A stretch of DNA of 64,000 nucleotides, from the NCBI RefSeq assembly GCF_026000115.1, contig NZ_AP026867.1:3777716-3841715 (forward strand). Direction: 5' to 3'. This document shows positions 4,571 to 31,859 of this stretch, piece by piece; position 1 is the first letter of the stretch, and the number at the start of each line of letters is the position of its first letter. This stretch comes from Aureispira anguillae (GTDB lineage: Bacteria > Bacteroidota > Bacteroidia > Chitinophagales > Saprospiraceae). The notes under the pieces were generated by a model, which worked only from the letters and a program-made list of their open reading frames with translations, did not search any database and had not been told where the DNA came from. The position numbers and the translations under genes are program-made.

Positions 4571-4571
4571 G

Positions 4572-6150: not shown

Positions 6151-6206
6151 CGCTACTTCCCTCATTTGCCAATCCAACTTAACAGCATACGAATTATTAA
6201 CCAAAC

Positions 6207-6767: not shown

Positions 6768-6784
6768 CTTTCCTGTACAAAAAA

Positions 6785-7432
6785 CTAAACAACAGACGAT
6801 TTTGATGCTCGTTTTTTATAATCTAGAATATTCAATCGTTCCGTACATCCCTGAAAATCTTCTTCTACATTAGAAGCGATAATTGTTAATCGGTTGGGAT
6901 GATAGGCATAATCTCTTAATAACGCTAGATACCAAGCCACTGCTTTTCTATCCAACGTAATTGTTGGCTCATCCAACAACAAAAGAGAGGTATCAGAACA
7001 AATAGCCAACGCTAACTTCAAACGCTGTTGCATTCCAGAAGAGAAAAACTTAATTGCTTTTTTTTGAGCAGATTTTGGATAATCAAGTCGTTCAATAAGT
7101 TCCTGCTGGCTACATTTCATCGGTTTAAATTTCCAATGAAAGTCAATCGCTTCCTTTAAGGTGAAGTCCTCAATTAGTTCAATATAAGGTGCTGCAAAAC
7201 TTAGATTCTTATAGGCATTATCAATAGAAATAGCAACGTTATCCTTGGAAAAACTGAGCTTTCCCTTAGAAGGAGACAAATGCCCTGAAAGCACCTGCAT
7301 CAAAGTCGATTTTCCAGAACCATTATTGCCCAAAATAGCATACCCCGTTCCCATTTGAAACTCATAAGTAAGCGCTCTAAAAATCCATTCAAAACGATAC
7401 CGTTTTCCGACATTTGTTAACTGTAAATTCAT
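6785..7432 (-). CDS. ABC transporter ATP-binding protein with atypical loops
   Basis: From the ATG at 7432 (MNLQLTNVGKRYRFEW) this is a 215-residue stand-alone ABC ATPase. Walker A is GNNGSGKST (residues 35-43), the signature is FSSGMQQRLKLA and Walker B is LLLLDEPT, with a D-loop Asp after it. The usual Q-loop glutamine is missing (FAAPYIEL) and the switch-histidine position reads IIASNVEED, with Asn in place of His. A longer reading from 7471 adds 13 unrelated residues. It follows lpxA by 109 bases on the same strand. No permease gene is near, so it either works with a membrane partner encoded elsewhere or is non-transport. Confidence 0.85.
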   Translation of the reverse strand: MNLQLTNVGKRYRFEWIFRALTYEFQMGTGYAILGNNGSGKSTLMQVLSGHLSPSKGKLSFSKDNVAISIDNAYKNLSFAAPYIELIEDFTLKEAIDFHWKFKPMKCSQQELIERLDYPKSAQKKAIKFFSSGMQQRLKLALAICSDTSLLLLDEPTITLDRKAVAWYLALLRDYAYHPNRLTIIASNVEEDFQGCTERLNILDYKKRASKSSVV

Positions 7433-7541
7433 TCCTATTTCTGCTATTCTGATTACAACAGAAGCAGCCAAACTGTTTTGATACAGTTTAGCTGCTTCCT
7501 ATATTATCTTAGACTTGATAAAACGTTATCAACTGTTCAGT

Positions 7542-8369
7542 TTAAAGTTGAGGGCTATCATTTTTGCGTTTATTGCTTAGCCCCTTAATGAGTCCATTCT
7601 TAGAGGCTCTTGTAAAACCAATAATACGCTGACGCTCTTGGCTGTCCTCTATATGTTCTTCAATAAACTTAATACCTTTAGAGATATTGCGATGCTCAAC
7701 AAACAATTGGTGATAAATATCTTGAATGTTTCGAATGGCATTCGATGCAAATCCCTGTCGACGCAATCCAACCGTATTGACCCCAATATAAGAAGCAGGG
7801 TAACGAGAAATTCGTACATAAGGAGGAACATCCTTATTCAGTAGTGTCCCACCACCAATTAAAGCATGTGCTCCAATTTGAACAAATTGGTGAACAGCAG
7901 TCATTCCGCCTAAAATAACGTGCTCCTCAATTTCTACATGTCCTGCTAGGGTTGCATTATTGGCGAGAATACAATGTTCTCCAATAACACAATCATGAGC
8001 AACATGAACATAAGCCATCAAAAGGCAGTTATTCCCAATTACAGTTTTATAATTGGCTCTAGTTCCTCTATTAAGGGTACAATACTCCCTAATGATGACA
8101 TTGTCGCCAATTTCTAATGTTGTATCTTCACCGCTGTATTTCAAATCTTGGGGAATAGCTCCTACTATTGCTCCTGGAAAAATTTGACAATTTTTCCCAA
8201 TTCTAGTACCAGACATGATACAGACATTTGCACCAATAGTAGTATCATCACCAATGACTACATCTGCTTCAATAGTTACCCAAGGGCCAATTTTAACATT
8301 TTTACCAATACGAGCGTTGGGATGAACAGCTGCGTGCGGATAAGAAGGTTGCATAACGTTTTCTTCCAT
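7542..8369 (-). CDS. lpxA: Acyl-ACP--UDP-N-acetylglucosamine O-acyltransferase
   Basis: First committed enzyme of lipid A synthesis, moving a hydroxyacyl chain to the 3-OH of UDP-GlcNAc in the cytosol as a homotrimer. It has 275 residues: a left-handed beta-helix of hexapeptide repeats (VHPNARIGKNVKIGPWVTI and onward), the catalytic His125 in YVHVAHDCVIGEHC, the GGMTAVHQFVQIG strand, and the C-terminal helical cap starting PASYIGVNTVGLRR. The start at 8369 leaves five bases after the lpxC-fabZ stop; MQPSYPH five codons later is an alternative. Tight coupling to lpxC-fabZ means one transcript. Confidence 0.96.
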   Translation of the reverse strand: MEENVMQPSYPHAAVHPNARIGKNVKIGPWVTIEADVVIGDDTTIGANVCIMSGTRIGKNCQIFPGAIVGAIPQDLKYSGEDTTLEIGDNVIIREYCTLNRGTRANYKTVIGNNCLLMAYVHVAHDCVIGEHCILANNATLAGHVEIEEHVILGGMTAVHQFVQIGAHALIGGGTLLNKDVPPYVRISRYPASYIGVNTVGLRRQGFASNAIRNIQDIYHQLFVEHRNISKGIKFIEEHIEDSQERQRIIGFTRASKNGLIKGLSNKRKNDSPQL

Positions 8370-8374
8370 TCGTT

Positions 8375-9763
8375 TTATCGTCTAATAATTTGCGCTAATA
8401 GTTCTGCCTCGCATACTAATTTGTTGCCAACATAAGCTTTGCCAGTCATTTCACACAAACCTCTTCGAATAGGGCTAATCAGCTCCATTTTGAAGAGAAT
8501 GGTATCACCTGGCAAAACAGGGTGCCTAAAAAGGGCATTTTTGATGCGCAAAAAGAAAGTATCCCATTCATGAGGATTCTCCACATTTTCCATAACCAAA
8601 ATACCACCCGTTTGAGCCATAGCTTCTATCTGTAAAACACCTGGCATAACTGGGTTGTTCGGAAAGTGCCCAGGAAAGAAAGGTTCATTCATGGTTACAT
8701 TCTTCACCCCTACCACATGCTTATCAGTTAGTTCTATAATTTTGTCAATCAACAAAAAAGGAAACCGATGCTGAAGCTTTTTTGTTATTTCATTAATATC
8801 ATTAACAGGTTTCTTATTTGGATCGTATTTGGGTATACCTCGCAATTTGCGAGACGTCTTATAAGTGCTTAATAGTTCTTTTGCCAATTTAGTATTAGCA
8901 GCGTGTCCTGGTTTTTTAGCAATAATCTTAACTCTCAAATCGAGCCCTGTTAATGCCAAATCACCAACTACATCTAATAATTTATGGCGAGCTGCCTCAT
9001 TTTGGAACCGCAATTCTGTGGTATTCAAAATTCCCTCTTGCTTAACCTCTATTTCTGTAGTAACATTTAGCTTTTCTGCCAAAAGAGCCAGTTCTCCATT
9101 TTTAGGAACACTATCTACAAAAACGAGCGCATTGTCCAATTCGCCGCCTTTAACCAGTCCTGCCTCTGCTAATTCTGACAATTCGTGCAAGAATACAAAA
9201 GTTCGGTTGGGAGCAATTTCTGTTGCAAAATCTTCTAAATTATCCAAATTTGCATATTGCTTTCCTATTACAGACGAATCAAAATCGATAAGGGTTGTAA
9301 CCTCAAATTTTTCTGAGGGCAAAATAGTATATTCAGCACCCGATTCGTCATCTTTCCAGTAGATGGGCTCTGAAACATCCAAATAATTTTGTTCAGCATC
9401 TTGTTCATCAATGCCTACTGCTAATATTTTTTCTACAAAGGGTAAAGCAGAACCATCCAAAATTGGCACCTCTTCCCCATCAATATCAATCAGTACATTG
9501 CAAATGCCTGTACCTTTGAGGGCTGCCAACAAATGTTCAACAGTAGCTACAGTCACCTCCTTCGCTCCCAGAACGGTACATCGCTGGGTCGCTACTACAT
9601 GATTAGCGTCTGCTTTTATAATGGGTTGATTTTCTATATCAATTCTACGAAATTTTATGCCATGATTCGCAGCGGCAGGATGCAAAGATAGTGTGGTGTG
9701 TTTACCTGTATGCAATCCTTTACCTTCTATTTCAATAGATTGCTTTAACGTCGCTTGTTTCAT
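8375..9763 (-). CDS. lpxC/fabZ: Bifunctional LpxC deacetylase / FabZ dehydratase
   Basis: 462 residues combining two enzymes. Residues 1 to about 305 are the zinc deacetylase LpxC (UDP-3-O-acyl-GlcNAc deacetylase): IEGKGLHTGKH, a metal ligand at His77 in ATVEHLLAAL, NRTFVFLHEL, and the late HKLLDVVGDLAL zinc motif. Residues about 318-462 are the hotdog-fold FabZ hydroxyacyl-ACP dehydratase: FPFLLIDKIIEL, the active-site GHFPNNPVMPGVLQIEAMAQ with His and Glu, and LFRHPVLPGD. This fusion is known and typical for Bacteroidota; it links lipid A and fatty acid flux. All catalytic residues are seen. It leads the lpxC-fabZ/lpxA transcript. Confidence 0.97.
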   Translation of the reverse strand: MKQATLKQSIEIEGKGLHTGKHTTLSLHPAAANHGIKFRRIDIENQPIIKADANHVVATQRCTVLGAKEVTVATVEHLLAALKGTGICNVLIDIDGEEVPILDGSALPFVEKILAVGIDEQDAEQNYLDVSEPIYWKDDESGAEYTILPSEKFEVTTLIDFDSSVIGKQYANLDNLEDFATEIAPNRTFVFLHELSELAEAGLVKGGELDNALVFVDSVPKNGELALLAEKLNVTTEIEVKQEGILNTTELRFQNEAARHKLLDVVGDLALTGLDLRVKIIAKKPGHAANTKLAKELLSTYKTSRKLRGIPKYDPNKKPVNDINEITKKLQHRFPFLLIDKIIELTDKHVVGVKNVTMNEPFFPGHFPNNPVMPGVLQIEAMAQTGGILVMENVENPHEWDTFFLRIKNALFRHPVLPGDTILFKMELISPIRRGLCEMTGKAYVGNKLVCEAELLAQIIRR

Positions 9764-10229
9764 AACTCTATGAAGCTTAAAAGATTGTTAGATAATATGA
9801 TTTCAATATATAAAATATTCTAGGTTCAATTTAGTTTAAGGTTATTCTTTAGCACGAATAGATTACTTGAATGAATCTATGTTTTTAGCACAAAGTCTAT
9901 AACAGGCTAGACTTCTTTATCAGTAGTATAAAATTTTGTAGGCACTTACCAAAAGGGCGATCCCTAAGGCAAATTATGTGGATTGTTTTGAGTTTTTTTG
10001 TTTTTTAGGCACTCATTTATAAACAATCAATAGTTACTACTTTTTTTTTAGCCGCCACCAAAAAACACTTCTTTTAAAAGTAAGCTAAAGAAGTACTTGA
10101 ATGCGATTTAATAGGGCAATTTAATGCTCTAAATGCATCTATTTTACAATGATAGGCTTAATAACCGACACAAAGATAACCTATTTTCCAAGCCATTATA
10201 ATCGAGATCAATTTTTATGTAAAAATAAG
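9764..10229. other. 466-base gap between lpxD and lpxC-fabZ
   Basis: No ORF of credible length on either strand. A minus-strand TATCTTTG (plus coordinates 10171-10178) matches the Bacteroidota -7 consensus and points toward lpxC-fabZ, but it would give a leader of about 400 bases. The lpx genes may therefore be two transcription units, or the long leader may be regulatory. There is no clear terminator after lpxD. Confidence 0.35.
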
Positions 10230-11276
10230 CTAACCTTTTTTAGTTAAGTTGTTCAATTGCTTTTGGATTTGATCAACCTGTTTTTGGAGATCTGGCAAAT
10301 TTTTAAAGACAATAGCACACCTATAATAACGCTTGTAATCAATAGCAGGCGAGCCCCAAATGGCTGTATTTTCTTGCTTGACAGATTGAGCCAAACCACT
10401 TTGTGCCTGTATTTTAGTCCCATTGGCAATTTTTAGATGTCCTGCAAAACCTACTTGTCCTCCTACCATACAATTCTCACCAATTTGTGTACTCCCTGCA
10501 ACGCCTACTTGAGAAGCCAGCACGGTGTTTTTTCCCACTCGAACATTATGAGCTACCTGAATCAAATTATCCAACTTTACGCCCTCTTCAATAATAGTAG
10601 CGTCCATTGTTGCACGATCTATCACTGTATTTGCTCCAACATCAACACGATCTCCCAATATAACAATTCCCAATTGAGGAATCTTTTGATAAGAGCCATC
10701 TGCTTGTGGTGCAAATCCAAAACCATCACTACCAATAACAGCATTAGCATGAACGGTCACCTGATTGCCCAATTGACAACCTCTATAAATTTTCACCCCA
10801 GAGTGCAAGGTAACATCATCTCCAATAACAACATCCTCTCCAATATAAACATGTGGATAGATCACTGCATTTTTTCCAATCTTAGCTCCTTTTTCAATAT
10901 AGGCAAAAGCATCAACTCTTGCCCCTTCTCCAACCGTTGCCTGCTCATGAATATACGCCTGTTTAGAAATTTCTTTTTGTTGCTGAGCCTCCATTGCCTC
11001 ACTAAAATACTGCATCAAGATCCCCAAACTGGCATAAACATCGGCTACCTTTATTAAGGTCGCTGTTATGTTTTGTTTGGGCTCAAAATCTTTGGCGACT
11101 AGAATAACGGAAGATTGACAAGTATAGACATACGATTCATATTTTAGGTTCCCTAAAAAGCTAATAGCTCCAGGCTCTCCTGCTTCTATTTTGGCGGGTT
11201 TACTGACCAATACATCAGGGTTCCCCACTAATTCTCCTCCTAGTAATTGATTAATTAGACTGGCTTTGACTTGCAT
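10230..11276 (-). CDS. lpxD: UDP-3-O-acylglucosamine N-acyltransferase
   Basis: Third lipid A enzyme, adding the N-linked hydroxyacyl chain to UDP-3-O-acylglucosamine. It has 348 residues, the normal length. An N-terminal uridine-binding domain (1-100: LINQLLGGELVGNPDV, EAGEPGAISFLGNLKY) precedes a long left-handed beta-helix of hexapeptide repeats. The conserved NAVIGSDGFGFAP and the catalytic His243 in IQVAHNVRVGKN are present. The C-terminal helix (KNLPDLQKQVDQIQKQL) closes the trimer. It is on the same strand as lpxC-fabZ and lpxA but 466 bases upstream. Confidence 0.96.
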   Translation of the reverse strand: MQVKASLINQLLGGELVGNPDVLVSKPAKIEAGEPGAISFLGNLKYESYVYTCQSSVILVAKDFEPKQNITATLIKVADVYASLGILMQYFSEAMEAQQQKEISKQAYIHEQATVGEGARVDAFAYIEKGAKIGKNAVIYPHVYIGEDVVIGDDVTLHSGVKIYRGCQLGNQVTVHANAVIGSDGFGFAPQADGSYQKIPQLGIVILGDRVDVGANTVIDRATMDATIIEEGVKLDNLIQVAHNVRVGKNTVLASQVGVAGSTQIGENCMVGGQVGFAGHLKIANGTKIQAQSGLAQSVKQENTAIWGSPAIDYKRYYRCAIVFKNLPDLQKQVDQIQKQLNNLTKKG

Positions 11277-11605
11277 TTAATTCTTAATTGTTGACGTTAT
11301 TGTATGGTTGAATACGATTAGTTATGTTGCCACCTCATGGTAGCTACGCTGTGCTTTTAGTAGTAATTTTGTTTACTATTGTAGGAATTTATTTTTTTTC
11401 GTTATAAACTTACTGAAAATCTGTCCAAAAATTCTACTTTGGGCTAATTACACGATAACAAAAATTTCTAAATACTTTTTAATTGAGTCTTTTAGCGATC
11501 TTTTTTTTCAAATTTTCGCCTTGATAACGCTGCTATCAGGCTGTAGTTTTCATTGAAGCTCATCTAAAATCATCCATAATTTGTGTTACGGCATACTAAT
11601 TATCC
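11277..11605. other. Divergent intergenic region lpxD / aminotransferase
   Basis: 329 bases carrying the start regions of two divergent genes. I see no exact TAnnTTTG facing either gene; TACTTTGG and TAATTTG are near matches. A 27-codon hydrophobic frame from 11324 was considered and rejected. No other structure was recognised. Confidence 0.3.
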
Positions 11606-12769
11606 ATGCGTAAATATTTTGCTATGAATATATCATCTAAACTCCCCAATTTGGGAACAACTATATTTTCTGTCATGTCGGCTTTAGCCAATAAGCACAA
11701 AGCCATTAATTTGTCCCAAGGCTTTCCTAATTTTGATTGTGATGAACGCCTCAAGAATCTGGTCAGTCACTACGTCCAAAAAGGCTTCAATCAATATTGC
11801 CCTATGACTGGAGTACCTATTTTGGTAGAACGCCTAGCTGCCAAAATCCATGGTTTATATCAGGTTTCCTATGATCCCTATACTGAGATTAATATTACAT
11901 CTGGTGCAACTCAGGCTATTTTTAGTACAATTCATGCCTTTATACACCCCAACGATGAAGTAATTATTGTAGAGCCAGCCTATGATTGCTATCAACCGAG
12001 CATACAATTGGCAGGTGGGAAAGTTGTCCCTTATCAAATCAAAGCCCCCGACTGGAAGATAAACTGGGAAGAATTTGGACAATTGATTACCTCCAAAACT
12101 CGCATGATTATCTTAAACACCCCTCACAATCCTTCAGGAAGTATTTTAGAAGACTCCGATTATCAAGCATTACAACAACTCGTCGAAAATAGCAATATAT
12201 TAATTTTGAGTGATGAGGTGTATGAGCATATGATTTACGATGGAAAAAAACATTGCTCTATTTTAAGTTACCCTGCTTTGCGCCAACGAAGTTTAGCCGT
12301 TTATTCTTTTGGAAAAACGCTGCATGCTACGGGTTGGAAACTTGGCTATATTGTAGCGGATAAAGCATTGATGAAAGAGTTTAGAAAAGTACATCAATTT
12401 GACGTTTTTTCTTCCAATACTCCTATGCAGTATGCTATTGCAGATTATTTGGAAGATGAGCAAAGTTATTTAGGTTTGCCACAATTCTTTCAGCAAAAGC
12501 GAGATTTTTTCTTAGATAAAATACAAGACAGTCCCTTTCAATTTACACCAAGTGCTGGTACCTATTTTCAAGTTGCCGATTATTCTGCGATTAGTGATGA
12601 ACCAGACACCGAATTTGCCAAGCGCATGACAATAGAGTATGGCGTTGCAGTCATTCCATTATCTGTTTTTTATCACGATAATTTGGATAATAAAGTAGTG
12701 CGTTTTTGTTTTGCTAAAACAGAAGATGTTTTAGCAAATGCAGGGGCATTGATTCGTAAGATAGGGTAA
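11606..12769 (+). CDS. PLP-dependent aminotransferase, methionine/aromatic type
   Basis: 387 residues of fold-type I class I/II aminotransferase, closest in pattern to YbdL-like methionine aminotransferases. Visible: INLSQGFPNFD near the start, the ITSGATQAIF cofactor-phosphate region, the LNTPHNPSGS substrate/PLP Asn motif, LILSDEVYEHM with the PLP-N1 Asp, the Schiff-base Lys in SFGKTLHATGWKLGY, and the C-terminal RFCFAK with the carboxylate-binding Arg. YbdL-type enzymes transaminate Met, Phe and related 2-oxo acids. An internal ATG six codons in (MNISSKLPNLGT) may be the true start, because family members begin near there. It ends at a strong bidirectional terminator. Confidence 0.9.
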   Translation: MRKYFAMNISSKLPNLGTTIFSVMSALANKHKAINLSQGFPNFDCDERLKNLVSHYVQKGFNQYCPMTGVPILVERLAAKIHGLYQVSYDPYTEINITSGATQAIFSTIHAFIHPNDEVIIVEPAYDCYQPSIQLAGGKVVPYQIKAPDWKINWEEFGQLITSKTRMIILNTPHNPSGSILEDSDYQALQQLVENSNILILSDEVYEHMIYDGKKHCSILSYPALRQRSLAVYSFGKTLHATGWKLGYIVADKALMKEFRKVHQFDVFSSNTPMQYAIADYLEDEQSYLGLPQFFQQKRDFFLDKIQDSPFQFTPSAGTYFQVADYSAISDEPDTEFAKRMTIEYGVAVIPLSVFYHDNLDNKVVRFCFAKTEDVLANAGALIRKIG

Positions 12770-12786
12770 TCAACCTTTAGTCAAAT

Positions 12787-12823
12787 AAAAAAACGCTACA
12801 ATTTTTGATTGTAGCGTTTTTTT
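12787..12823. terminator. Bidirectional Rho-independent terminator
   Basis: Perfect 16-bp arms at 12787-12802 and 12808-12823 enclose a 5-base loop. A-run/T-run edges make it work in both directions, between the aminotransferase gene (plus) and the small lipoprotein gene (minus), which converge here. Confidence 0.9.
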
Positions 12824-12847
12824 AACAAGATTTAAAAAAATCTTTAA

Positions 12848-13096
12848 TTATTTAGCGGTACAAGTGTATCCTGCAAGTTCTAACGTCTTTTTGTAATCCT
12901 CAACAGATACTCCACCAGGAATGTCTGTACTAGCCGCTGCAGTACCATTAGTAGTTACAGTGATTTTGTCATCGCAAATATCTGTACTAATTGAAGATGC
13001 AGATAATTCACAAGTATAACAAGTGTTTTTTGTACAAGAAGAGAAAGACATAGCAGCAGTAATTGCTACAGCGCAAGATAATACTAATTTTTTCAT
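12848..13096 (-). CDS. Small cysteine-containing lipoprotein
   Basis: 82 residues. A signal peptide (MKKLVLSCAVAITAAMSFSS) ends in a lipobox (FSSC, Cys21), so the mature protein is a lipid-anchored peptide of about 60 residues. It carries CYTCEL, a Cys near residue 40 and one close to the end (GYTCTAK). The four non-lipid Cys residues could form two disulfides or bind a metal. Small lipoproteins with a similar TCYTC start are common in marine Bacteroidota, but I know no function. A TAAATTTG promoter element lies 39 bases upstream and a terminator follows, so it is a stand-alone unit. Confidence 0.75.
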   Translation of the reverse strand: MKKLVLSCAVAITAAMSFSSCTKNTCYTCELSASSISTDICDDKITVTTNGTAAASTDIPGGVSVEDYKKTLELAGYTCTAK

Positions 13097-13134
13097 GAGA
13101 TTTTTTTTTATAGTTTTACTAAATAAATATGGCG

Positions 13135-13142
13135 CAAATTTA
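13135..13142 (-). promoter_or_regulatory. Candidate -7 element of the small lipoprotein
   Basis: On the minus strand TAAATTTG, an exact TAnnTTTG match, lies 39 bases before the start at 13096. The spacer and -33 region are AT-rich without a clean TTTG. Confidence 0.48.
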
Positions 13143-13206
13143 ATATATTTTTTCGTAAAGGTCTATTTTTAGTATTTTTTTTTCAAAAATAAATGAATTA
13201 GCATCA

Positions 13207-13845
13207 ATGAAACTACGCTGGAAGATCGCTCAAGCCGCAGAAATACGCTGGTGGCAAGGGTATTTGAACAAAAAAAACAAAGCAGAATACCTCGATTGGA
13301 AAAAGAAGTATTGGGCAACTTTTCTAAAAGATTGCCAATTAAAAATTCCTGCACAGGCTAGTTGTTTGGATGCAGGCTGTGGTCCTGCGGGCATCTTTAC
13401 CATTTTAGAACAACAAAAGGTAGACGCTGTTGACCCCCTATTGGATCGTTATGAAAAAAAGCTAAGTCATTTTAAAACGATAGACTATCCTACCGTTAAT
13501 TTTATCGCTAGTCCTTTAGAACACTTCGCCCCCAAACAGCCCTATGATTATGTTTTTTGCTTAAACGCCATTAATCATGTTTCCGATTTGGATCAATGTT
13601 GGGAACAGCTCTTTGATGCGACCAAAAAAGGAGGCACACTCATTGTGTCCATTGATGCGCATAATCATAGTTTTTTCAAGCATTTATTCCGAGCTATACC
13701 TGGCGATATACTCCACCCCCATCAATACGATTTGGCAGAATATGAAACCATGCTAACCAACCGTGGTGGTAAAATTCTGAAAACCATTCACAAAACGAAG
13801 GCCTTCTTTTTTGATTATTATGTTTTAGTAGTAGAAAAAACGTAG
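13207..13845 (+). CDS. Class I SAM-dependent methyltransferase
   Basis: 212 residues with a Rossmann-fold methyltransferase core. Motif I is SCLDAGCGPAGIF (52-64); the acidic end of strand 2 is VDAVDPLLDRY. Motif post-I and the catalytic-face strand read YDYVFCLNAINHVSDLDQC, followed by KKGGTLIVSIDAHNH. The N-terminus has a basic, Trp-rich helix (MKLRWKIAQAAEIRWWQGYL) typical of small-molecule methyltransferases of the UbiE/Methyltransf_11 kind. The substrate cannot be inferred and neighbours give no pathway. The gene starts 110 bases from the divergent lipoprotein gene. Confidence 0.85.
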   Translation: MKLRWKIAQAAEIRWWQGYLNKKNKAEYLDWKKKYWATFLKDCQLKIPAQASCLDAGCGPAGIFTILEQQKVDAVDPLLDRYEKKLSHFKTIDYPTVNFIASPLEHFAPKQPYDYVFCLNAINHVSDLDQCWEQLFDATKKGGTLIVSIDAHNHSFFKHLFRAIPGDILHPHQYDLAEYETMLTNRGGKILKTIHKTKAFFFDYYVLVVEKT

Positions 13846-14173: not shown

Positions 14174-15787
14174 ATGAAAAGTTTTTTACGAAAACTCACT
14201 CGTAACCCCAAGAATGATATTTTATCAGGTCTAACTGTTGCCCTCGCTCTTGTTCCCGAAGCGGTTGCTTTTTCTTTTGTAGCAGGAGTTGACCCACTAG
14301 TTGGTCTATATGGTGCCTTTATGATGGGACTTATCACCGCTATTTTTGGTGGTCGCCCAGGAATGATTTCGGGTGCTACTGGCGCTATGGCTGTTGTTAT
14401 GGTTTTTATTGTCAAAAAAGGAAATGAGATTGGAATCAACTTAGATACTCCAATCGAAGACTTAGGCTTGCAATGGCTATTTATTACCTTATTATTGGTT
14501 GGAACTTTTCAAATTATAGCTGGTTTTCTTAAACTCGGTAAGTTTGTCCGACTCATTCCGCATCCTGTGATGATGGGTTTTGTAAATGGATTGGCAATTG
14601 TTATTTTTTTAGCACAATTGGGGATGTTCAAAGAAACAATTGATGGAAAAACACAATGGCTACAAGGTTCTGACATGTTGATTATGTTAGGATTGGTTGG
14701 ATTAACGATGACGATCATGTACTTGTTGCCTAAATTAACGGAGAAAGTACCTTCTGCTCTAGTTGCAATTATTGTTGTTGCTGCTATTACTATTTTTGGA
14801 AACTTAGATGTGAGCACGGTAGGTTCTTTTATTCGTGATGGAGGTGGAGATGGCTTAGAGGGGTCTTTGCCAACGTTTCAATTTCAAATTTTTGAACTAT
14901 TTAGCACCTTAGATGGTCATTGGTTTTTTATTGTAAAAATGGCTGCAGTATTGGCTGCAATTGGTTTGATTGAATCCTTGATGACCTTAAATTTAATTGA
15001 TGATATTACAGAGAGTCGTGGTAGTGGAAATAGAGAATGTGTAGCGCAAGGTGGTGCTAATATTTTGAATGGTTTATTTGGAGGAATGGGTGGCTGTGCA
15101 ATGATTGGGCAATCCATCATCAACGTAGAATCTGGTGGTAGTGGTCGTTTGTCTGGCATAACTGCGGCTATTGCTTTGCTCTGCTTCGTTTTGTTTGGAG
15201 CACCACTAATTGAACAAATTCCAATTGCTGCATTAGTTGGGGTTATGTTTATGGTTGTCATTGGCACCTTTGCTTGGAGTAGTTTTAGAATTTTACACAA
15301 AATTCCTTTGGCAGATGCCGTTGTATTAATCGCTGTTTCTTCCATTACAGTGGTAGAAGATTTAGCCGTTGCCGTAATCGCTGGGGTAATTATGTCAGCA
15401 CTGGTTTTTGCGTGGAAAAATGCCATTATGATCCGTGCAAGAAAACGCATCAAAGAAGATGGAACTAAAGTATATGAAATTTGGGGACCTTTGTTCTTTG
15501 GCTCTGTTCAGAACTTTACAGCAAAATTTGATGCTAAAAATGATCCTAAAAACATTGAAATTGACTTTATTGAGTCTAAGGTAAACGATCATTCTGGCAT
15601 TGAAGCCATTCGTAGCATTGCTAATAAATACCTTGACTTGGGTAAACAAATCAAATTGACCCACTTGAGTCCTGAATGTAAAACATTGCTGTTAAAGGCG
15701 AATCCTAAATTTGAATCTATTATTGAAACATCTATCGATGATCCTAGATATTATGTGGTAACTAGTTTGGTTGATCATGAAGTATAA
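14174..15787 (+). CDS. SulP-family anion transporter with STAS domain
   Basis: 537-residue inner-membrane transporter of the SLC26/SulP family. The N-terminal signature NDILSGLTVALALVPEAVAFSF is followed by about 12 membrane segments in the 7+7 inverted-repeat pattern. GVDPLVGLYGAFMMG, RPGMISGATGAMAVV and the GGMGGCAMIGQS segment are family hallmarks. The C-terminus (about 440-537) is a cytosolic STAS domain with VNDHSGIEAI in place of the usual DSSG-type loop. Members carry sulfate, bicarbonate, chloride or dicarboxylates. No carbonic anhydrase or sulfur gene is adjacent, so the substrate is open; bicarbonate is a reasonable guess for a marine organism. Confidence 0.93.
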   Translation: MKSFLRKLTRNPKNDILSGLTVALALVPEAVAFSFVAGVDPLVGLYGAFMMGLITAIFGGRPGMISGATGAMAVVMVFIVKKGNEIGINLDTPIEDLGLQWLFITLLLVGTFQIIAGFLKLGKFVRLIPHPVMMGFVNGLAIVIFLAQLGMFKETIDGKTQWLQGSDMLIMLGLVGLTMTIMYLLPKLTEKVPSALVAIIVVAAITIFGNLDVSTVGSFIRDGGGDGLEGSLPTFQFQIFELFSTLDGHWFFIVKMAAVLAAIGLIESLMTLNLIDDITESRGSGNRECVAQGGANILNGLFGGMGGCAMIGQSIINVESGGSGRLSGITAAIALLCFVLFGAPLIEQIPIAALVGVMFMVVIGTFAWSSFRILHKIPLADAVVLIAVSSITVVEDLAVAVIAGVIMSALVFAWKNAIMIRARKRIKEDGTKVYEIWGPLFFGSVQNFTAKFDAKNDPKNIEIDFIESKVNDHSGIEAIRSIANKYLDLGKQIKLTHLSPECKTLLLKANPKFESIIETSIDDPRYYVVTSLVDHEV

Positions 15788-15823
15788 ACAATCAACTTTA
15801 CGACATATTGTAAATTAAAAATG

Positions 15824-24427: not shown

Positions 24428-24517
24428 ACATCGCTACCCAATTGGTAATCATAATGTTCCATAAAAATACAAAAACAAATTGTTTCAACAAAAGTGGCAT
24501 TTAAAACAAAAGTTTCA

Positions 24518-24525
24518 TATATTTG
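24518..24525 (+). promoter_or_regulatory. Candidate -7 element directly before the Rpn gene
   Basis: TATATTTG is an exact TAnnTTTG match ending four bases before the ATG at 24530. If used, the transcript would be leaderless or nearly so. It may also be chance in AT-rich DNA. Confidence 0.35.
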
Positions 24526-24529
24526 TAAT

Positions 24530-25453
24530 ATGAAAAAAACAAAAGAACTAATACGATTTGATTGGGCTATTAAAAAATTGCTAAGAAATAAGGCAAATTT
24601 TGATATTTTGGAAGGTTTCTTAAGTGAACTTTTGTCCGAAAATATTACCATCAAACAAATTTTAGAAAGCGAAAGTAATAAAGAAACAGAAAATGATAGG
24701 CATAATCGAGTTGACATATTAGTGGAGAACTCCAATGAAGAATTAGTGATTATTGAAGTTCAAAACAGTAAAGAATACGATTATTTTCATAGAATCTTAT
24801 ATGGTACTTCTAAAATTATTACGGAATATATTAATAGAGGGGAAGCTTATGCTAAAGTCAAGAAAATTATTTCTATTACCATCGCATACTTTGATCTAGG
24901 ACAGGGAAAAGATTATATTTATCATGGGACCCATCAATTTAAAGGGGTTCATTATGGTGATGTTCTAAATTTAGCAGAAAAGCAAAAAGATCTTTATCAA
25001 AAAGAAGAAGTTTATGAAATTTTTCCTGAATATTGGTTGCTAAAAGTAAGTAAATTTAATGATGCCGTTCAAGACAAATTAGACGAATGGATCTATTTCC
25101 TAAAAAATGGAAAAGTTCAAGAGGGGTTTACTGCTCAGGGGCTAGTAGAAGCTAAAGAAAAATTAGATGAAATGAAACTCTCCGACCAAGATCGAAGAGA
25201 ATATAACTATTTCTTAAAAAGGCTTAGAGATATTGCTAGTGAGCAACATACCAAAATGGCTGACGCAGAGGACTTATTAAAGAAAGGTCGAAAAGAGGGT
25301 CTTGAAAAGGGTCGAAAGGAAGGCATTGAAAAAACCCAACAGGACGCAATAATCGGCTTTTTTAAAATTGGAGTGAGTCCAAAAGATATTGCAGATGCAC
25401 TTAATTTATCGCTCCAAAAGGTTATCCAAACCATAGAAAACTATAAGAAGTAG
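24530..25453 (+). CDS. Rpn-family PD-(D/E)XK nuclease / putative transposase
   Basis: 307 residues from the ATG at 24530 (MKKTKELIRFDWAIKKLL). The Rpn (recombination-promoting nuclease, PDDEXK_2) signature is intact: RFDWAIKKLLRNKANFDILEGFL, and the catalytic core RVDILVE then VIIEVQNS, giving Asp62, Glu76 and Gln78 (ExQ variant). YFHRILYGTSKIITEYI and a KITIAYFDLG-like strand follow. The C-terminus has a charged coiled region with KKGRKEGLEKGRKEG repeats and a short helix-turn-helix-like end (GVSPKDIADALNLSLQKV). Rpn proteins are DNA endonucleases that raise recombination; they are often mis-called transposases. No IS ends are seen around it. It stands alone and ends at a very strong terminator. 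Confidence 0.9.
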   Translation: MKKTKELIRFDWAIKKLLRNKANFDILEGFLSELLSENITIKQILESESNKETENDRHNRVDILVENSNEELVIIEVQNSKEYDYFHRILYGTSKIITEYINRGEAYAKVKKIISITIAYFDLGQGKDYIYHGTHQFKGVHYGDVLNLAEKQKDLYQKEEVYEIFPEYWLLKVSKFNDAVQDKLDEWIYFLKNGKVQEGFTAQGLVEAKEKLDEMKLSDQDRREYNYFLKRLRDIASEQHTKMADAEDLLKKGRKEGLEKGRKEGIEKTQQDAIIGFFKIGVSPKDIADALNLSLQKVIQTIENYKK

Positions 25454-25486
25454 CAACAGCTCACTAGCCTTTATAGAAAAAACTTT

Positions 25487-25530
25487 ACATAAAAAAACAT
25501 TTGGCAATGAGACCAAATGTTTTTTTATGT
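25487..25530. terminator. 18-bp bidirectional terminator
   Basis: Perfect arms 25487-25504 and 25513-25530 around an 8-base loop, with A/T runs on both edges. It separates the convergent Rpn gene and the giant ATPase gene. Confidence 0.92.
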
Positions 25531-25547
25531 AGCACTAACAATTAAAA

Positions 25548-28500
25548 TTAAGCCTTGTCTACTTTATTTTTTTCGACAATCATTTTTGCAGATTTGGCAT
25601 ATTGAAGCAAATCTTCTAGCATTTCAGCAGGTAGTTCCCCAAGATCAAAAGCCAATTTAAGCTTACCTTTAACATTCTGATCTCTATAGCCCTGAATATC
25701 CTCAATAGAAGGATTTTCAATGGCTTCCTCATTGGCAGCTAATTCTTCTTCAACGACTACCGTCTCAACCACTCGCTCAATAACTTTGTGTCCTCCTGTC
25801 TGTTCTTTGTTCTCATTTTTGAATCGAAGTAATCCCAATAAATGTGCTTCAGTCAAACCATTGTATTTTGTAATGGCAAATAGATCCTCTTCTATATTTG
25901 TTGAGTTGCTATTGACATAAGCCACTTTATCACAAAGTACAGCATTTTCACTTTCATACTCCTTAACTACCTGATCTAAGAAGTGAACCACATAAGGCAT
26001 TTTTCCAGCATATAGATGAATACTATATTCCGAACTTTCTCGCCATTTCATGTAATGATCTGCCCCCCATTCTTGACCATTGGTTTCTAAACGCTCAATA
26101 TCCAATTTATTTTCAACCTTCGTTGTCCTTAAATCAACTCCTTTTATATCTAAGTTTGTGAAATGTTGTTCTTTAGCCAGCAAACAATTAAAAACATGCT
26201 CTATTGTTATCTCAAATTTTTCAAATAACTGTCGTTGCTGCTTATGATCAAAATAATATAATTCTTGATCGGCATGATTATCTACTTTATATTCAAAAGT
26301 GGGCTCTTCTGCCGTCCCTCCTACCTTAGTAATAAAGGGCAAAGGTGTATTGTTGGTTACTTTAGATAGCGTATTGTATAGTTTTCGCAGCCAAAATAAA
26401 CGTTCATCCTCAGAAGTTAGTGTAGTACCTTCAGATTGTAGCCAAAAAATAGTCTGTAATAAATATCCCTCTTCTTTATTGCGTAAATCATTCAATTGTT
26501 TTTGCGAAATAGCATTTCCTGTATTGGTATGGAAATATTTACGAACAGTAACTAAAGTCGAACGTTCTGTGTTTACTCCAATAGCATTCAACAGCGAAAG
26601 CTTGCCTCTAGGAATTAAAACTACTTTTGGTGCAGGTGGAGTAAATTCAATCTCCTCTTCACCTTCTTCGGCTACTGGTATTTCATAATCAGGCTGAATG
26701 GTTCGCTCTTCTATTTCCTCCTCTTCTTCACCAACCCAATCCATCAACCAAGTAGGGAAACGCTCTTTAATCAAGGCATAAGTTGCAGGATAGACCAATT
26801 CATTGGGCAATAAACCTCCGAGTGTTCCCTCTGCATCTGTTTTTAAATCCAAACTAATTGGTCGCTCCAAATCTGGTATCTTTGACCAAGCCTTGTATAA
26901 AAAATTGAGTAATTCCGACTGCAATTTTTCGGGGCTTTCATTCTCTTCCAATAACCGAACAGGAACACAATAAAACGTATTCTTTTCGATATATGGATTA
27001 TGCACTAAATTCTGAGAACCAAAACTAAATGCACTTTCTTTGGTCTTCATCTTCAACAACTCATCCACACCACTATAATAGTCCAAATTCAAAATAGCAT
27101 TGGCATCTATAAATGAATTATTATTCAGATGAAAAGCATCAAAAGCACTTATTTCTATAGGCTCAGGGGCTAGCGTATGCAACAAAAAGGATTTAATTAA
27201 CTTGCTATTATCATTATCTTTAGCATATAATAAGGCAAAAGCCAATTGCGCTGCATTTTCAAGAATAGCATGGTCTTTTTTCAATTCATCAAAGACATCC
27301 TTAATGTGTTTTTCTTCTCCCTCAAAACAACGCCTTTGCAAGACAGTAGGCGCTTCATAATCTACAAATTGGTTGGCAATATTTTGCAAAAGCGTTTGAA
27401 TGGTTTTAAAACGAGGTAAGACCTCAGACAGTTTCAAACTAAACTTACCACAACGTTCGATAACCAAAGTAATATTTTCATCAAAGCCAATATCGTTCAA
27501 CTTAAACAATTCTCCTGCTACATTTTCGATGTAGATTTTGGAACGAACTTTAGAATGATCTGCATCCTTATTTCTAAAAATCTGCAAGGTTTGATGTTCA
27601 AAAGAATCTTTGTTATAGGATTGCCCCTCTTTTAAAACAATTTTATCAATCTTACTAAACACCTGCTCTTGAACATCTGCATTACCACTTTCTACAATCA
27701 AAGCAGACAATAATTCTGGCGAAACCTCTTTGGATTTAGAAATGGCATTAAACAACTGGCTTCCAATTAGCAAACCTTTGTTTCGATATGCTGAATTGTA
27801 CATTTTTGTAGGCAACAATTTATACGTCTCTCCAAAAATAGCATTAATTTTTTCTGCCAAGCCCTGCTGTCCTTTTTCAACAGCATAAGGAATATTTCTA
27901 GCTCGTTTTCCGACTTCACATTCTCGAGAATTTTCTTGATTTTCGACTACATACAAAAATGTAAATAAATCTTCTTTTGTTTTTTCAAAAAAATGTACTA
28001 GACTAGCCGCTTCATTTTTTTCTAAGACAACAACATCATTAGCCAACGATTTTGCCAAAATACCATTCCGAGTTTTCATGATACTCTCTGTCAAAAATGG
28101 CAAAACATCAGGATGCGGAGTGTACAAATCTGTCAAAGCATGAATAGCTGTTCTTAGAGCGCCATATTTATCTGCATTTACCATTTCTGCATGAAAAAAG
28201 ATCTGCTGATTAGAAACAAAGCCCACTGTATTATCGACAAAAATATAATTACTAGTCGTTAGTGTTTTTGGTGATTTTGCCAAACTAGCATATTTCATTA
28301 CCCCTTGATAAAAGAGCTGAATATTAGCTGTTACGCTGCTGTGTTGGCTTATTGTATTCCATTCTGTTAATAAGATATTGGTATAAATATCCGTTTCTTT
28401 TGCCAAATAATTTTGTAATAATACACTGTCCTCATGTACATCTATTCTATAATCATCCAACCAGCCCTCAACAGATTTGGTAGAAGCAATTAATTTAGAC

Positions 28501-31184
28501 AAGACCATCCGCTCCCCTTTTTGGTTGCAGAACAGTTCTACTTTTGCTAAGTCTTTGGGAGATAAAACCCCTGCCAATAGAATAAAGAAAGCTTTCTTTT
28601 CTTCGGGTTCAAGATTAGCAGTTTTGCAATTTTCAATCAGATCGTTGAGCCCCATTTTCCACTCTTTACTAGCAGTTGTTGGAGTTGTTCTAAAAGGGTC
28701 ATTTGCCAAGATGGGCAAAATAGCAGGATGTGGTAAAACTAGCCCTAAGACTTTAGAAACAGCAGAACGTAAATCAGTATATTCTACTTTTATTTTTTCG
28801 AGACAGCGATGATAAAAAACCGCTTTGGGGCTACAAAACCCATGCTCAAGATTGGTATAAATATAGTTTGTTTCTGTTAATTTGGTCTGTCCTGATTTTA
28901 GTTTAAAATATGCACCTACACTATTATAAAACTCTAATAATTCCTCCTCCTGTTCGCCATCAATGCCCTTGACCAATTCCGACCAAAATGGCACAATAAT
29001 ATGGCTATAAGTCTCCCACTTATTTTTCTTGGATATATATTGTTCGGCTAATTCTTCAGAATCTTCCTCTATCGCAATTTTGAAATTTTCTAGCCAATAT
29101 TCTACAGTAGCATCTGCGGGTAATAGACCATGTAATGGAGCTGCTAAACCTTCTTTATTATTAAATAACTGTACTGCACGAAGCTCCTCTTTTTTTACTC
29201 CCTCTAAACTCCTCAAAAAAGCATACAAACTATGTTTTTGTTCTACAGAAAGAACGGCCTCTTTCGTTCGAGCAGCTATTTTTTCAAACAACGCATAATC
29301 ATTGGTCAAATAATCCAACTGTGATTCGATTTGCTGTAAGATAACAGAGTAATCTAAAATATTAAATTCTAAAACCGAAAAGCCAAGCCCTTTAATAGAA
29401 TCCCTAATCGGCAACATTCGCTCACTCATTAAGAAAATATCCTCCTGAGCTTGCAAATCATTAATGGCATAAAAATGAGAGGCCCCCGTTGTACTTGTAA
29501 ACTTAAAGCACTTAATTTCTCCAAATTTTTCCAAGAAGACCTCATCAAAATCAACTCGTTTCAATTCGGCAACAAAAATTTGATAGTCTTCTGCTGATAA
29601 GTTCGCAATAAAATTATTCAAGAGACTCATATTGGCCTCCAAAATCAATTCTTTAATTCCCCAACGTTTTAAACCTAGTTTTGCATTGTTGGCCGCAGAG
29701 CGTAAAATATCATCTTCATTTTCTACCTCAGTCCAATACAGCCATTCTCTACCAATCCCCAAGCTCATTGGTTCAATAGGTAGGGCTGTTCCCTTTGCTA
29801 TAATTAAATCTTTCAGGTAAAAATTACCTTTATTGGTAGGGATATTTAGTTGGATATATTCCAATAGAGGATCGTAAAGGTATTTGTTAATTAATTCAGC
29901 ATCGTATTCCGTAGAACGATCGGTTAGCAACAAAGCCTTATAAATATGACAATAAGTCTCTAAATTTTCTTGCTTATATTTATCCAAATTTCGCTTGAGT
30001 GACTTGGCAATGTATTTAAACGTTTCAATATTAGCCTCCCCTTGGTCATCGAGTCGAGTACGATCGGTTATTTTTGCAAAAGAAGAACTGTGTACAAAAT
30101 AAGCCATGCTGTGCCGCTCATTTCTCATTGGAAAGAATTGATACAAACTAGGGGCATCTTTCAACGCTTGCATTTGTTCCAAGCTAGCAGGAAAACCCAA
30201 TGAAATTTCAATCGGACAAGTTGGGAATTCAGGATCTATTTTATTAAAATCCTCTGTTCCTGGTAAAATAGAATAACGTTCAAATTTTGTTTCAAACTTC
30301 TCTATAATATCCTCCTGCAAAGCTACCTTCTCCAAGGTTTTTAGATTGTTCATTGCATAACCAATTCCAGAAGTAATATTGAGCAACGATTCTTTTAGTT
30401 TCTCGTGCTTTTTGGGACCAAACCTCAAGAAAAACAAAGAACCCTGTTCTAAGGAAAATTGCTCTAATAAGGTTTTGTTTTTATTTAAAAAAGTAACCAA
30501 ATCGCCTAGCTCTTCCTGATTAAAAAGCACTTGATTTTCATAATCCAAGTTCTTTACTTCCTCATCTGGTGAGGTAGGAAAACAAGCTAAGATAATTTTT
30601 AATAACCAAGGGGCAGTCTCAGCTTCTATTTTGTCTTGCAAACTCAAACTCCCACCTTTATAATTTACCAAGTCTTCAAATTGCTGATTGTTATACCAAC
30701 TAAACAACAAAGGCCCTGCTAAATCCCTCAGTAGTTCTTCTGCTCCATCAGATTTTCCCATCAAACGATAGGCTAACTTAAAACCAATCCCATAACGACC
30801 AATCTTTCCGCAATTTTCTACCTTAGTTTTATCCGCTTTTGTTCCTTGGAAAGAATTTAACAAAGCCTTCAAATCTTTTTCTGAAAATGCTCGTCCATTG
30901 TTCAAAACCATAAAAAAGGTATCGTCATAGATCACAGCACATTCTGTAGATTGGCTATCAGCAGCATTTTGCAAAAATTCATAAATGGCCTGCTCATCTT
31001 GTGCATTTTGCAACTTGGGTGTCAAATCAGCTTTTATATTCTCAACGATACCATTGACCATTTTATAAAAGCCACTATTTTCTTGGTGACCACTACCTAT
31101 AAAATTTTCATCCCAATTAGGCATATCATAACCTTGGGCATTGCGCCAATTTGTACGAAACTGTTGAATATTTTTGATTTGCAT
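25548..31184 (-). CDS. Giant sacsin/Hsp90-like GHKL ATPase protein, function unknown
   Basis: 1878 residues in one frame. Residues about 40-180 form a GHKL ATP-binding domain of the sacsin/Hsp90 type: N-box EFLQNAADS (Glu69, Asn73, Asp76), the NNGRAFSEKDLKAL motif (95-108) and the Gly-rich lid KIGRYGIGFKLAYRL (127-141). Binding residues look intact. No HisKA, receiver, nuclease, helicase or protease motif was recognised afterward. Residues about 640-830 and 852-1040 are two diverged copies of one ~190-residue unit. An acidic hinge (GEEEEEIEERTI and EEGEEEIEF) lies near 1490-1525, and the C-terminus is helical and Lys/Glu-rich. No signal peptide, so cytosolic. It is single-gene, between a terminator and a repeat-filled gap. 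Chaperone, MORC-like or defence roles are all possible; none is shown. Confidence 0.8.
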   Translation of the reverse strand: MQIKNIQQFRTNWRNAQGYDMPNWDENFIGSGHQENSGFYKMVNGIVENIKADLTPKLQNAQDEQAIYEFLQNAADSQSTECAVIYDDTFFMVLNNGRAFSEKDLKALLNSFQGTKADKTKVENCGKIGRYGIGFKLAYRLMGKSDGAEELLRDLAGPLLFSWYNNQQFEDLVNYKGGSLSLQDKIEAETAPWLLKIILACFPTSPDEEVKNLDYENQVLFNQEELGDLVTFLNKNKTLLEQFSLEQGSLFFLRFGPKKHEKLKESLLNITSGIGYAMNNLKTLEKVALQEDIIEKFETKFERYSILPGTEDFNKIDPEFPTCPIEISLGFPASLEQMQALKDAPSLYQFFPMRNERHSMAYFVHSSSFAKITDRTRLDDQGEANIETFKYIAKSLKRNLDKYKQENLETYCHIYKALLLTDRSTEYDAELINKYLYDPLLEYIQLNIPTNKGNFYLKDLIIAKGTALPIEPMSLGIGREWLYWTEVENEDDILRSAANNAKLGLKRWGIKELILEANMSLLNNFIANLSAEDYQIFVAELKRVDFDEVFLEKFGEIKCFKFTSTTGASHFYAINDLQAQEDIFLMSERMLPIRDSIKGLGFSVLEFNILDYSVILQQIESQLDYLTNDYALFEKIAARTKEAVLSVEQKHSLYAFLRSLEGVKKEELRAVQLFNNKEGLAAPLHGLLPADATVEYWLENFKIAIEEDSEELAEQYISKKNKWETYSHIIVPFWSELVKGIDGEQEEELLEFYNSVGAYFKLKSGQTKLTETNYIYTNLEHGFCSPKAVFYHRCLEKIKVEYTDLRSAVSKVLGLVLPHPAILPILANDPFRTTPTTASKEWKMGLNDLIENCKTANLEPEEKKAFFILLAGVLSPKDLAKVELFCNQKGERMVLSKLIASTKSVEGWLDDYRIDVHEDSVLLQNYLAKETDIYTNILLTEWNTISQHSSVTANIQLFYQGVMKYASLAKSPKTLTTSNYIFVDNTVGFVSNQQIFFHAEMVNADKYGALRTAIHALTDLYTPHPDVLPFLTESIMKTRNGILAKSLANDVVVLEKNEAASLVHFFEKTKEDLFTFLYVVENQENSRECEVGKRARNIPYAVEKGQQGLAEKINAIFGETYKLLPTKMYNSAYRNKGLLIGSQLFNAISKSKEVSPELLSALIVESGNADVQEQVFSKIDKIVLKEGQSYNKDSFEHQTLQIFRNKDADHSKVRSKIYIENVAGELFKLNDIGFDENITLVIERCGKFSLKLSEVLPRFKTIQTLLQNIANQFVDYEAPTVLQRRCFEGEEKHIKDVFDELKKDHAILENAAQLAFALLYAKDNDNSKLIKSFLLHTLAPEPIEISAFDAFHLNNNSFIDANAILNLDYYSGVDELLKMKTKESAFSFGSQNLVHNPYIEKNTFYCVPVRLLEENESPEKLQSELLNFLYKAWSKIPDLERPISLDLKTDAEGTLGGLLPNELVYPATYALIKERFPTWLMDWVGEEEEEIEERTIQPDYEIPVAEEGEEEIEFTPPAPKVVLIPRGKLSLLNAIGVNTERSTLVTVRKYFHTNTGNAISQKQLNDLRNKEEGYLLQTIFWLQSEGTTLTSEDERLFWLRKLYNTLSKVTNNTPLPFITKVGGTAEEPTFEYKVDNHADQELYYFDHKQQRQLFEKFEITIEHVFNCLLAKEQHFTNLDIKGVDLRTTKVENKLDIERLETNGQEWGADHYMKWRESSEYSIHLYAGKMPYVVHFLDQVVKEYESENAVLCDKVAYVNSNSTNIEEDLFAITKYNGLTEAHLLGLLRFKNENKEQTGGHKVIERVVETVVVEEELAANEEAIENPSIEDIQGYRDQNVKGKLKLAFDLGELPAEMLEDLLQYAKSAKMIVEKNKVDKA

Positions 31185-31235
31185 GGTTGTCAGAAATTAA
31201 AATGAATGAGTTAGTATTGTTCTCTATGATTGCAT

Positions 31236-31530
31236 TACTCTGTTGAAAACCCAAACCCAGCTTGCTGGCTCACGAGTGATAACGAACCGACCTCAGGGAG
31301 CTCATAAGCGCTAGCGCACTAGCTAACCTAGCAGCGAAGCTAATCGCATTATTGCATGAGTGATGCAAGATGCTTTTTTATGTTTTTCATTAACTATTCT
31401 CATGAGCATAGCAAACTAAACAACTATCTCACGATCATAGGGAATAACTAAGCGCAGCTCCCTCACCTGCGTAGGTTTGTAGCCAAAGCTACAAGGGACT
31501 AGCAAAAACAGGGAGCTAATCAACAGAGTA
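31236..31530. repeat. Inverted-repeat-bounded intergenic element B
   Basis: In the 675-base gap upstream of the giant ATPase gene, TACTCTGTTGA (31236-31246) and its exact inverse (31520-31530) bound 295 bases that are less AT-rich than the flanks. The interior has TAGCAGCGAAGCTA (31329-31342), the reverse complement of the 14-mer in elements G and H. It also has several short dyads (AGCGCTAGCGC at about 31307, TTGCATGAGTGATGCAA at about 31353, TTGTAGCCAAAGCTACAA at about 31475). No ORF. The remaining ~330 bases to 31859 are very AT-rich with nothing recognised. The left end is about 50 bases from the ATPase start, so it may touch that promoter. Confidence 0.55.
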
Positions 31531-31859
31531 TTATTATTTATAATGTTTTGTTATTGTAAATATATTGATCTTAAGCAACAAAAACAAAAATATGCACAAA
31601 ATAAAACAAATAGTTTTAAATTAATACGATTAATTATCTAAAATAGCCATATTTTCATGAAATAAGAATATAATAGGTTTTAAATCTATGCTATTTTTCA
31701 AACATTTTACCAATCAATATTCAAACAAGTAAAGCCCTCAACACTTCAACAGCAATTCCCAAGTCATCCGCACAATCGTTCTAATCGTCGATTTCATTTA
31801 AGATTTCTTTCCATTTAAACTTCCTTTGTTTTATTATTTTCTGATCAACAACACTTAAT

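Follow-up and report, generated by a model that had tools for sequence, protein, structure and literature searches.

Among the defence-catalogued protein families is TmtA (PADLOC model PDLC03970), which we take to be Tiamat, reportedly described by Millman et al. in 2022 as a single-gene system. In the literature, Tiamat is counted among the systems of unknown mechanism (PMC12926258), and it is described as almost always chromosomal in Actinobacteria (PMC10482375) and as island-borne in Pseudomonas (PMC12629846). Other proteins with a comparable ATPase are eukaryotic sacsin, which contains three Hsp90-like modules, DnaJ and HEPN (PMC3710099), the prokaryotic MORCs, for which a connection to restriction-modification systems containing superfamily II helicases has been drawn (PMC2292703), and VcSduA, a GHKL-Shedu protein whose GHKL clamp is hypothesised to control a C-terminal effector (PMC12137116). 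Tiamat and sacsin were not found together in the open-licence literature; among the literature matches listed, none used the terms TmtA and Tiamat together and no title or abstract concerned the present gene in Aureispira.

We analysed a 64,000-nucleotide stretch of DNA (the window) from Aureispira, a filamentous marine bacterium, in which an open reading frame (ORF) of 1,878 codons reads from 31184 down to 25548 with no internal stops. The original prediction had described this ORF as carrying an intact GHKL nucleotide site, and both points held, with Glu69, Asn73, Asp76, NNGRAF (95-100) and KIGRYGIGFK (127-136) all present. The ATPase core was matched by Pfam HATPase_c_3 (aa 64-144) at 28.9 bits, above the cut-off of 25, and by the NCBIfam sacsin-type ATP-binding domain at 53.3, just above the cut-off of 50; Pfam SACS, at 27.7 bits, stayed below its cut-off of 32.8, and a Pfam scan of the whole ORF at E <= 1 returned nothing besides these two Pfam entries. 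The start, MxIKNIQQFR, is kept among close relatives, and the N-terminus (MQIKNIQQFRTNWR) is by appearance unlike a signal peptide. Feature coordinates are collected in Table 1.

Table 1. Features of the ATPase gene and its immediate surroundings, in window coordinates.
Feature	Position	Strand	Evidence
Whole ORF, TmtA-family GHKL ATPase, 1,878 aa	25548..31184	minus	ORF and profile match
GHKL ATPase core, aa 64-144 (N-box Glu69/Asn73/Asp76, NNG 95-97, GRYGIG 129-134)	30753..30995	minus	Pfam, NCBIfam, fold
Predicted transducer/middle-domain-like part, about aa 181-447	29844..30644	minus	TRAP1, MORC3 and MutL fold matches
Duplicated unit, copy 1, aa 641-833	28686..29264	minus	Self-BLAST and hhalign
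Duplicated unit, copy 2, aa 854-1038	28071..28625	minus	Self-BLAST and hhalign
C-terminal part of TmtA body, aa 1054-1821	25722..28025	minus	PDLC03970 positions 825-1427, 239 bits
Low-confidence tail, aa 1793-1878	25551..25808	minus	pLDDT block means 64 or less
PD-(D/E)XK transposase-family gene (Pfam PDDEXK_2), convergent with ATPase gene	24494-25453		
Terminator-like hairpin, 20 pairs (4 G-C), between PDDEXK_2 gene and ATPase gene	25486..25531	minus	Pattern scan only
Copy of dispersed ~90-bp repeat upstream of ATPase gene	31254..31346		

The TmtA model PDLC03970 matched the whole protein with 1,178 bits, its best stretch being aa 1-838, and also matched the C-terminal half scored alone; positions 1-816 and 825-1427 of its 1552 positions are covered. 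The name of a PADLOC model is in itself no proof of defence or of full-length homology to the experimentally tested Tiamat. With PDLC03970 covering the protein, an orphan family was ruled out, and the ~1,700 residues that had been thought to belong to no family are matched in large part (aa 1-838 and 1054-1821). The length, which had been considered unusual for bacteria, is usual for this family, since the TmtA profiles matching here run from 1,370 to 1,782 positions. Judged by sequence, the ORF belongs, over nearly its whole length, to a family already catalogued among defence proteins, with which it shares the profile across the protein, the intact motifs of the GHKL N-terminus and the stand-alone gene. 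It differs from the family model in an added internal duplication of ~200 aa, which is also found in class A relatives (see below), in leaving profile positions 1428-1552 without a match and in being present in all nine genomes of the genus.

AlphaFold2, with a 25-row alignment, modelled aa 1-1045 at a mean pLDDT of 87.6 and a pTM of 0.56. The best fold match of this model was TRAP1 (4z1i; Z 13.0, 276 residues, rmsd 6.2, model residues 34-447), together with sacsin SR1 (5v46; Z 13.0, 168 residues, rmsd 2.9, 20% identity), and further matches were to MORC3 (Z 12.4; MORC2/3 at Z 11-12), MutL (Z 12.1) and topoisomerase VI-B (Z about 12). The Hsp90/TRAP1 matches extend to aa 447-509, in a search that barely probed the part of the model beyond about residue 450. 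We are confident in the prediction that the N-terminal ~450 residues form a GHKL ATPase with a transducer, as in sacsin, Hsp90, MORC and MutL, and the clamp-type ATPase that had been proposed is borne out at the level of the model. A search of PDB sequences with the alignment of aa 1-1045 gave sacsin SR1 as the sole match (E about 1e-6, aa 62-140). The likeness to human sacsin SR1 (5v44-5v47) lies in the ATPase domain, by sequence and by predicted fold, whereas Pfam found no DnaJ, HEPN or ubiquitin-like part in the ORF and SACS fell below its cut-off. Unlike Hsp90, the ORF showed no Hsp90 sequence family over the middle and C-terminal domains (Pfam, E <= 1). As in VcSduA (PMC12137116), a GHKL ATPase is followed by a predicted clamp-like middle domain, but VcSduA carries a PD-(D/E)xK nuclease in the same chain and none was found in the ORF.

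The two duplicated units were recovered by self-BLAST of a 250-aa piece (E 1e-22, 29% identity) and by hhalign of 110-aa segments (E about 1e-33); the idea of more internal repeats was dropped, as hhalign of segment against segment gave this one duplication alone. The C-terminal part, aa 1040-1878, was modelled as a single chain of 839 residues with a mean pLDDT of 82.5. Foldseek against the PDB returned nothing at E <= 0.001, VIA-align returned 0 of 998 chains at Z >= 5, a PDB sequence search gave a single match at E 0.11 and Pfam gave no domain at E <= 0.001. A hidden effector in these 839 aa was rejected on the absence of a match by Pfam, PDB sequence, Foldseek and VIA-align, an absence which, for one 839-residue model, is not proof of a new fold. 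Structure prediction past the ATPase, which the original prediction had proposed as a check, gave a transducer-like fold to about residue 450 and no PDB match for aa 1040-1878. The low-confidence tail sits about where the body ends and relatives bear extra domains.

A contig scan yielded at least 239 relatives, of which the best 80 loci were kept and 54 (L037-L090) were examined for ORFs. The alignment of 57 rows comprised 46 of these 54 loci, ten whole-genome loci and the window, and a quick tree was built from the first 700 residues of 54 rows, three duplicates having been dropped. E69, N73, D76, G97, G132, G134 and K136 were identical in 57 of 57 rows, a count in which at least three row pairs each represent a single gene drawn from two collections and in which identity is partly built in, since most rows were retrieved with patterns over positions 65-72 and 128-136. 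Within this tree, drawn from the best 80 of at least 239 relatives, the ORF fell in class A (20 rows, SH-aLRT 100). In the alignment, copy 2 of the duplication was present in class A rows and in L051, and nothing corresponded to it in L050 or the ten rows of class B. The latter (1,566-1,806 aa; L052, L054-L060, L062 and L083) are not one clade, L059 and L062 branching apart. In 6 of the 10, a gene for a superfamily 1 (SF1) helicase lies within 35 nt of the gene end or overlaps it (the overlapping gene of L083 was read as fused by a script flag); L059 has such a helicase about 2.3 kb further on, and none was found in the flanks of L052, L054 and L060. At the base of class A, the SF1 helicase gene of L050 overlaps by one base. 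Pfam named AAA_11/AAA_12 in five of six helicases scanned, that of L062 having AAA_11 without AAA_12, and the helicases of L050 and L056 have PIN_4 at the C-terminus. Among the 16 rows of class C, of which 14 measure 2,225-2,310 aa and two have shortened ORFs, the helicase is fused to the body at about 1760-2250, where a BLAST test detects it in 9 of 16. L026 (6529-12351) encodes a GHKL body followed in the same chain by DarT at 1442-1636 (Pfam 4.9e-20), with a weak HD/Cas3 match. Prokaryotic MORC and paraMORC proteins likewise combine GHKL with a transducer, and they share with the ORF's relatives a restriction-modification context with a helicase; however, according to PMC2292703 their helicases belong to superfamily II, whereas those of the relatives are SF1-type (AAA_11/AAA_12) and none was recognised beside the ORF's lineage.

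Neighbours of the relatives were scanned at 36 of the 54 loci examined for ORFs, in addition to six Saprospiraceae loci treated below, giving 135 proteins of which 132 were scanned (78 and 54; three long proteins, in L048, L059 and L087, were dropped), 12 further loci being left out. Among the 54 neighbours of 15 class C genes, nine matched PDC-S68 and six a type I restriction enzyme model. The 78 neighbours of 21 other loci included six matches to MkoA (helicase-type) models and reverse transcriptase and Cas1 matches in 3-4 of 78, and at least one neighbour in L050 resembles, by eye, a group II intron protein. As we read the ORFs, L027 is flanked by PglZ/BrxL-like genes and, two genes away, by a PglX-like gene, as in BREX, and L028 adjoins a QatABCD-like set with BrxL/PglZ-like genes beyond; the C-terminal part of both relatives matches MkoA. 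L042 follows by 25 nt what we read as a type III restriction-modification pair. The antiviral link that had been suggested stands to this extent, that the family is catalogued as antiviral and that its relatives lie beside restriction enzymes and, by ORF reading, in BREX and Qat loci. The claim that no partner domain is known did not survive, as relatives bear an SF1 helicase, PIN, DarT or NOV_C. In sequence terms, the relatives are shown to be modular, the body being joined to an effector that is fused or encoded in the next gene, and, since these effectors differ from one relative to another, the body appears to be a shared platform on which the effector varies. Two class A loci have other neighbours: directly 5' of the relative in L043 (6416-8961) are a protein with a weak NACHT match below the cut-off and a PPR-repeat protein, upstream of that in L040 (289-1392) is a PDC-M02B match (1.3e-26), and downstream of it (7965-11513) lie a protein of 862 aa, caspase-like in appearance but lacking any Pfam match, and a weak match to DUF6615.

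A full-length copy without internal stops was found in 9 of 9 genomes of the genus, several of which are metagenome bins, the other eight copies being 60-86% identical to the ORF. Two Saprospira grandis records (L044 and L049) also carry a relative. In the family Saprospiraceae, at least 4 of 100 genomes (99 genera) had a full-length copy, the Aureispira genome included, in three genera, and a fifth had a short ATPase match; in the phylum, at least 14 of 395 genomes matched, at least four of them beyond the ATPase region, again including Aureispira. These counts are lower bounds because only one or two (phylum) or up to four (family) candidates were scored per genome. A core, syntenic housekeeping gene, the picture that the original prediction had set against its own reading, is thus approached, as regards presence and gene order, within Aureispira (9 of 9, partly syntenic) but not elsewhere, where relatives are patchy (at least 4 of 395 phylum genomes with an extended match). 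Between the gene tree and a GyrB tree, no supported branch was in conflict for the nine shared genomes, and gene and GyrB identities were correlated across eight genomes (Spearman 0.90, 28 pairs). GyrB was found for 16 genomes, of which 12 were in the tree (without G422, G447, G494 and G496), and three other Saprospiraceae branched outside the carrier group. In the full-length gene tree, which carried a long-branch warning, G495, G468 and the other six were unplaced relative to each other, and one reversal was seen, identity to the ORF being higher for G468 (62.9%) than for G495 (59.6%) but GyrB identity higher for G495 (83.4%) than for G468 (78.5%). In the one unsaturated pair of four, dN/dS was 0.038 for the whole gene and 0.013 for aa 1-180, and it ranged from 0.013 to 0.076 across the eight regions tested. 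Among nine loci compared with the window, synteny was found on both sides in L023, L041, L152 and L153, on one side only in L037 and on neither side in L039 and in L044 and L046, which are from other genera; L038 begins too close to the gene for a call. In L023, the protein is 80% identical, compared with 38-71% for six shared flanking genes. Plasmid carriage was dismissed, there being no match in a plasmid collection. Within the sampled genomes, the gene looks core and vertically inherited in the Aureispira-Saprospira lineage, and it is under strong purifying selection.

We also searched the lineage for a partner. BLAST (E <= 1e-5) against two partner-type helicases gave no match in the flanks, up to 9 kb, of seven Saprospiraceae loci (L037, L038, L039, L041, L044, L046 and L049). 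The L050 helicase had seven matches in the genome of the ORF, none inside the window, and its best match in 10 of 11 genomes was a helicase of 1,121-1,143 codons. The latter was rejected as a partner acting in trans because the match spans only ~160 residues around the P-loop and its N-terminus is, in our reading, nuclease-like. In L039, from the genus member G495, a PIN_8 gene (14695-15822; Pfam 5.1e-65) lies 27 nt downstream of the ATPase gene on the same strand, and the lineage is therefore not wholly without a partner. As a conserved partner this gene was discarded, a full-length match being found only in the L039 genome and weaker ones in 3 of 10 others. No partner was recognised next door in six of the seven loci. 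Of 42 flanking proteins from six Saprospiraceae loci, at least one was matched by each of 73 PADLOC models, none of which matched more than two; when ten of the 42 were scanned again individually, the yield was one weak ZorB-type match. One of the 42 matched mad3 at 1.6e-54. Nine other genes of the window gave PADLOC matches for one alone, by eye an ArsR-type regulator, to Csa3 and regulator-like models. No restriction-modification family was seen for these nine genes or among the matches listed for the Saprospiraceae neighbours (25 of 73 PADLOC families).

NOV_C was found in 3 of 11 genomes. The Aureispira genome G490 encodes a second, divergent copy of 1,573 aa (L151, 6161-10879) in an unrelated gene neighbourhood, with NOV_C at 1424-1521 and an N-terminal region 31% identical to the ORF ATPase. 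The genome of the ORF itself encodes a 1,610-aa NOV_C protein (L159; G000:C1:318001-338000, 4492-13226) whose N-terminal region weakly matches the ORF ATPase (E 2e-4); an SF1 helicase of 1,279 aa begins about 65 nt beyond it, and what we read as a DNA cytosine methyltransferase lies at a distance of about 3.5 kb. Both proteins are similar to the ORF in size and in this N-terminal region, but differ in having NOV_C near the C-terminus and, in L159, an adjoining SF1 helicase. The L159 copy looks to be of the mobile defence type, whereas the ORF does not.

The reading we favour, with a probability of roughly 0.6, is that the ORF encodes an ATP-driven clamp of a defence-associated family that became fixed in this lineage without the usual effector and was put to a standing job. 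Going by the motifs and the predicted fold, ATP binding would most likely lead to dimerisation through the N-terminal domain, as in Hsp90, MutL and MORC, whereupon the clamp of transducer and long scaffold would close on a nucleic acid or protein client, to open upon ATP hydrolysis. Since no effector was recognised in the Aureispira-Saprospira protein and the gene is core, the clamp may act alone there or recruit general cell enzymes, and its standing job may be to protect the cell from foreign nucleic acid or to deal with nucleic acid or protein that is damaged. We suggest, tentatively, that this state arose by domestication at the base of Aureispira-Saprospira, the effector being lost, the duplicated scaffold kept and the gene becoming core, a bacterial parallel to sacsin/NO VEIN. 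Against these views, the protein could be Tiamat proper, a working single-gene anti-phage system kept by every Aureispira, in which the clamp senses a phage product and the C-terminal body is the effector. The near whole-length TmtA match, the single-gene status of Tiamat, and the restriction enzymes and other PADLOC families adjoining relatives are consistent with this, and, aa 1040-1878 having no match, an effector fold might lie there unrecognised. In Actinobacteria, according to PMC10482375, Tiamat is nearly always found on the chromosome. However, a gene that occurs in 9 of 9 genomes of the genus, branches compatibly with GyrB and is strongly constrained is unlike the island-borne Tiamat of Pseudomonas (PMC12629846), and the 42 flanking proteins, despite one strong mad3 match, did not group under any PADLOC model (none matching more than two) or, in the ten rescanned singly, yield more than the weak ZorB-type match. 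We therefore consider this reading rather unlikely.

More improbable still is a sacsin/Hsp90-like protein chaperone unconnected to defence. Sacsin SR1 ranks with the best fold matches and is the sole PDB sequence match of aa 1-1045, the Hsp90/TRAP1 fold matches reach aa 447-509, and a constrained gene in all nine genus genomes would suit such a role, but no DnaJ, HEPN or other Pfam domain follows the ATPase, SACS is below its cut-off, and the relatives are joined to nucleic-acid enzymes (helicase, PIN and DarT). What is left of a defence system in decay, retained merely by accident, might be expected to look as the locus does in so far as the protein has no recognised effector and 6 of 7 Saprospiraceae loci have no recognised partner next door; yet the frames are open in 9 of 9 genus genomes, dN/dS is 0.013-0.076 in eight regions and the ATPase motifs are intact. 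Given constraint on each tested region, decay is disfavoured and we regard it as very improbable. Returning to the clamp with a standing job, the state of this family member is unusual, being found in every sampled genus genome, mostly alone and without a recognised effector. Since the lineage has the body without a recognised effector, the clamp's own action may be separable from the effector, and the relatives form a natural effector series (fused SF1 helicase, adjacent helicase with or without PIN, DarT and NOV_C) that hints at what is under the clamp's control. Should the core copy indeed have left defence, an immune-family protein would have turned into a standing cell component.

The ATPase gene stands singly, as had been described, with a convergent neighbour on one side and a divergent neighbour on the other, and the gap at 31185-31859 beside it is repeat-laden because of a dispersed ~90-bp element. 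The segment 31235-31530, most of whose matches are to this element, had at least 44 matches in its own genome, itself included, a lower bound from scoring 40 of 266 candidates. The convergent PDDEXK_2 gene had five matches in its own genome; it was rejected as a partner, any match being found in 6 of 9 genus genomes and the close matches being located elsewhere. Terminator-like sites in the region numbered three, with no excess over shuffles (mean 3.8). Further along the window, at 52021-57111 and 58769-62260, are large proteins with secretion-system C-terminal sorting tails.
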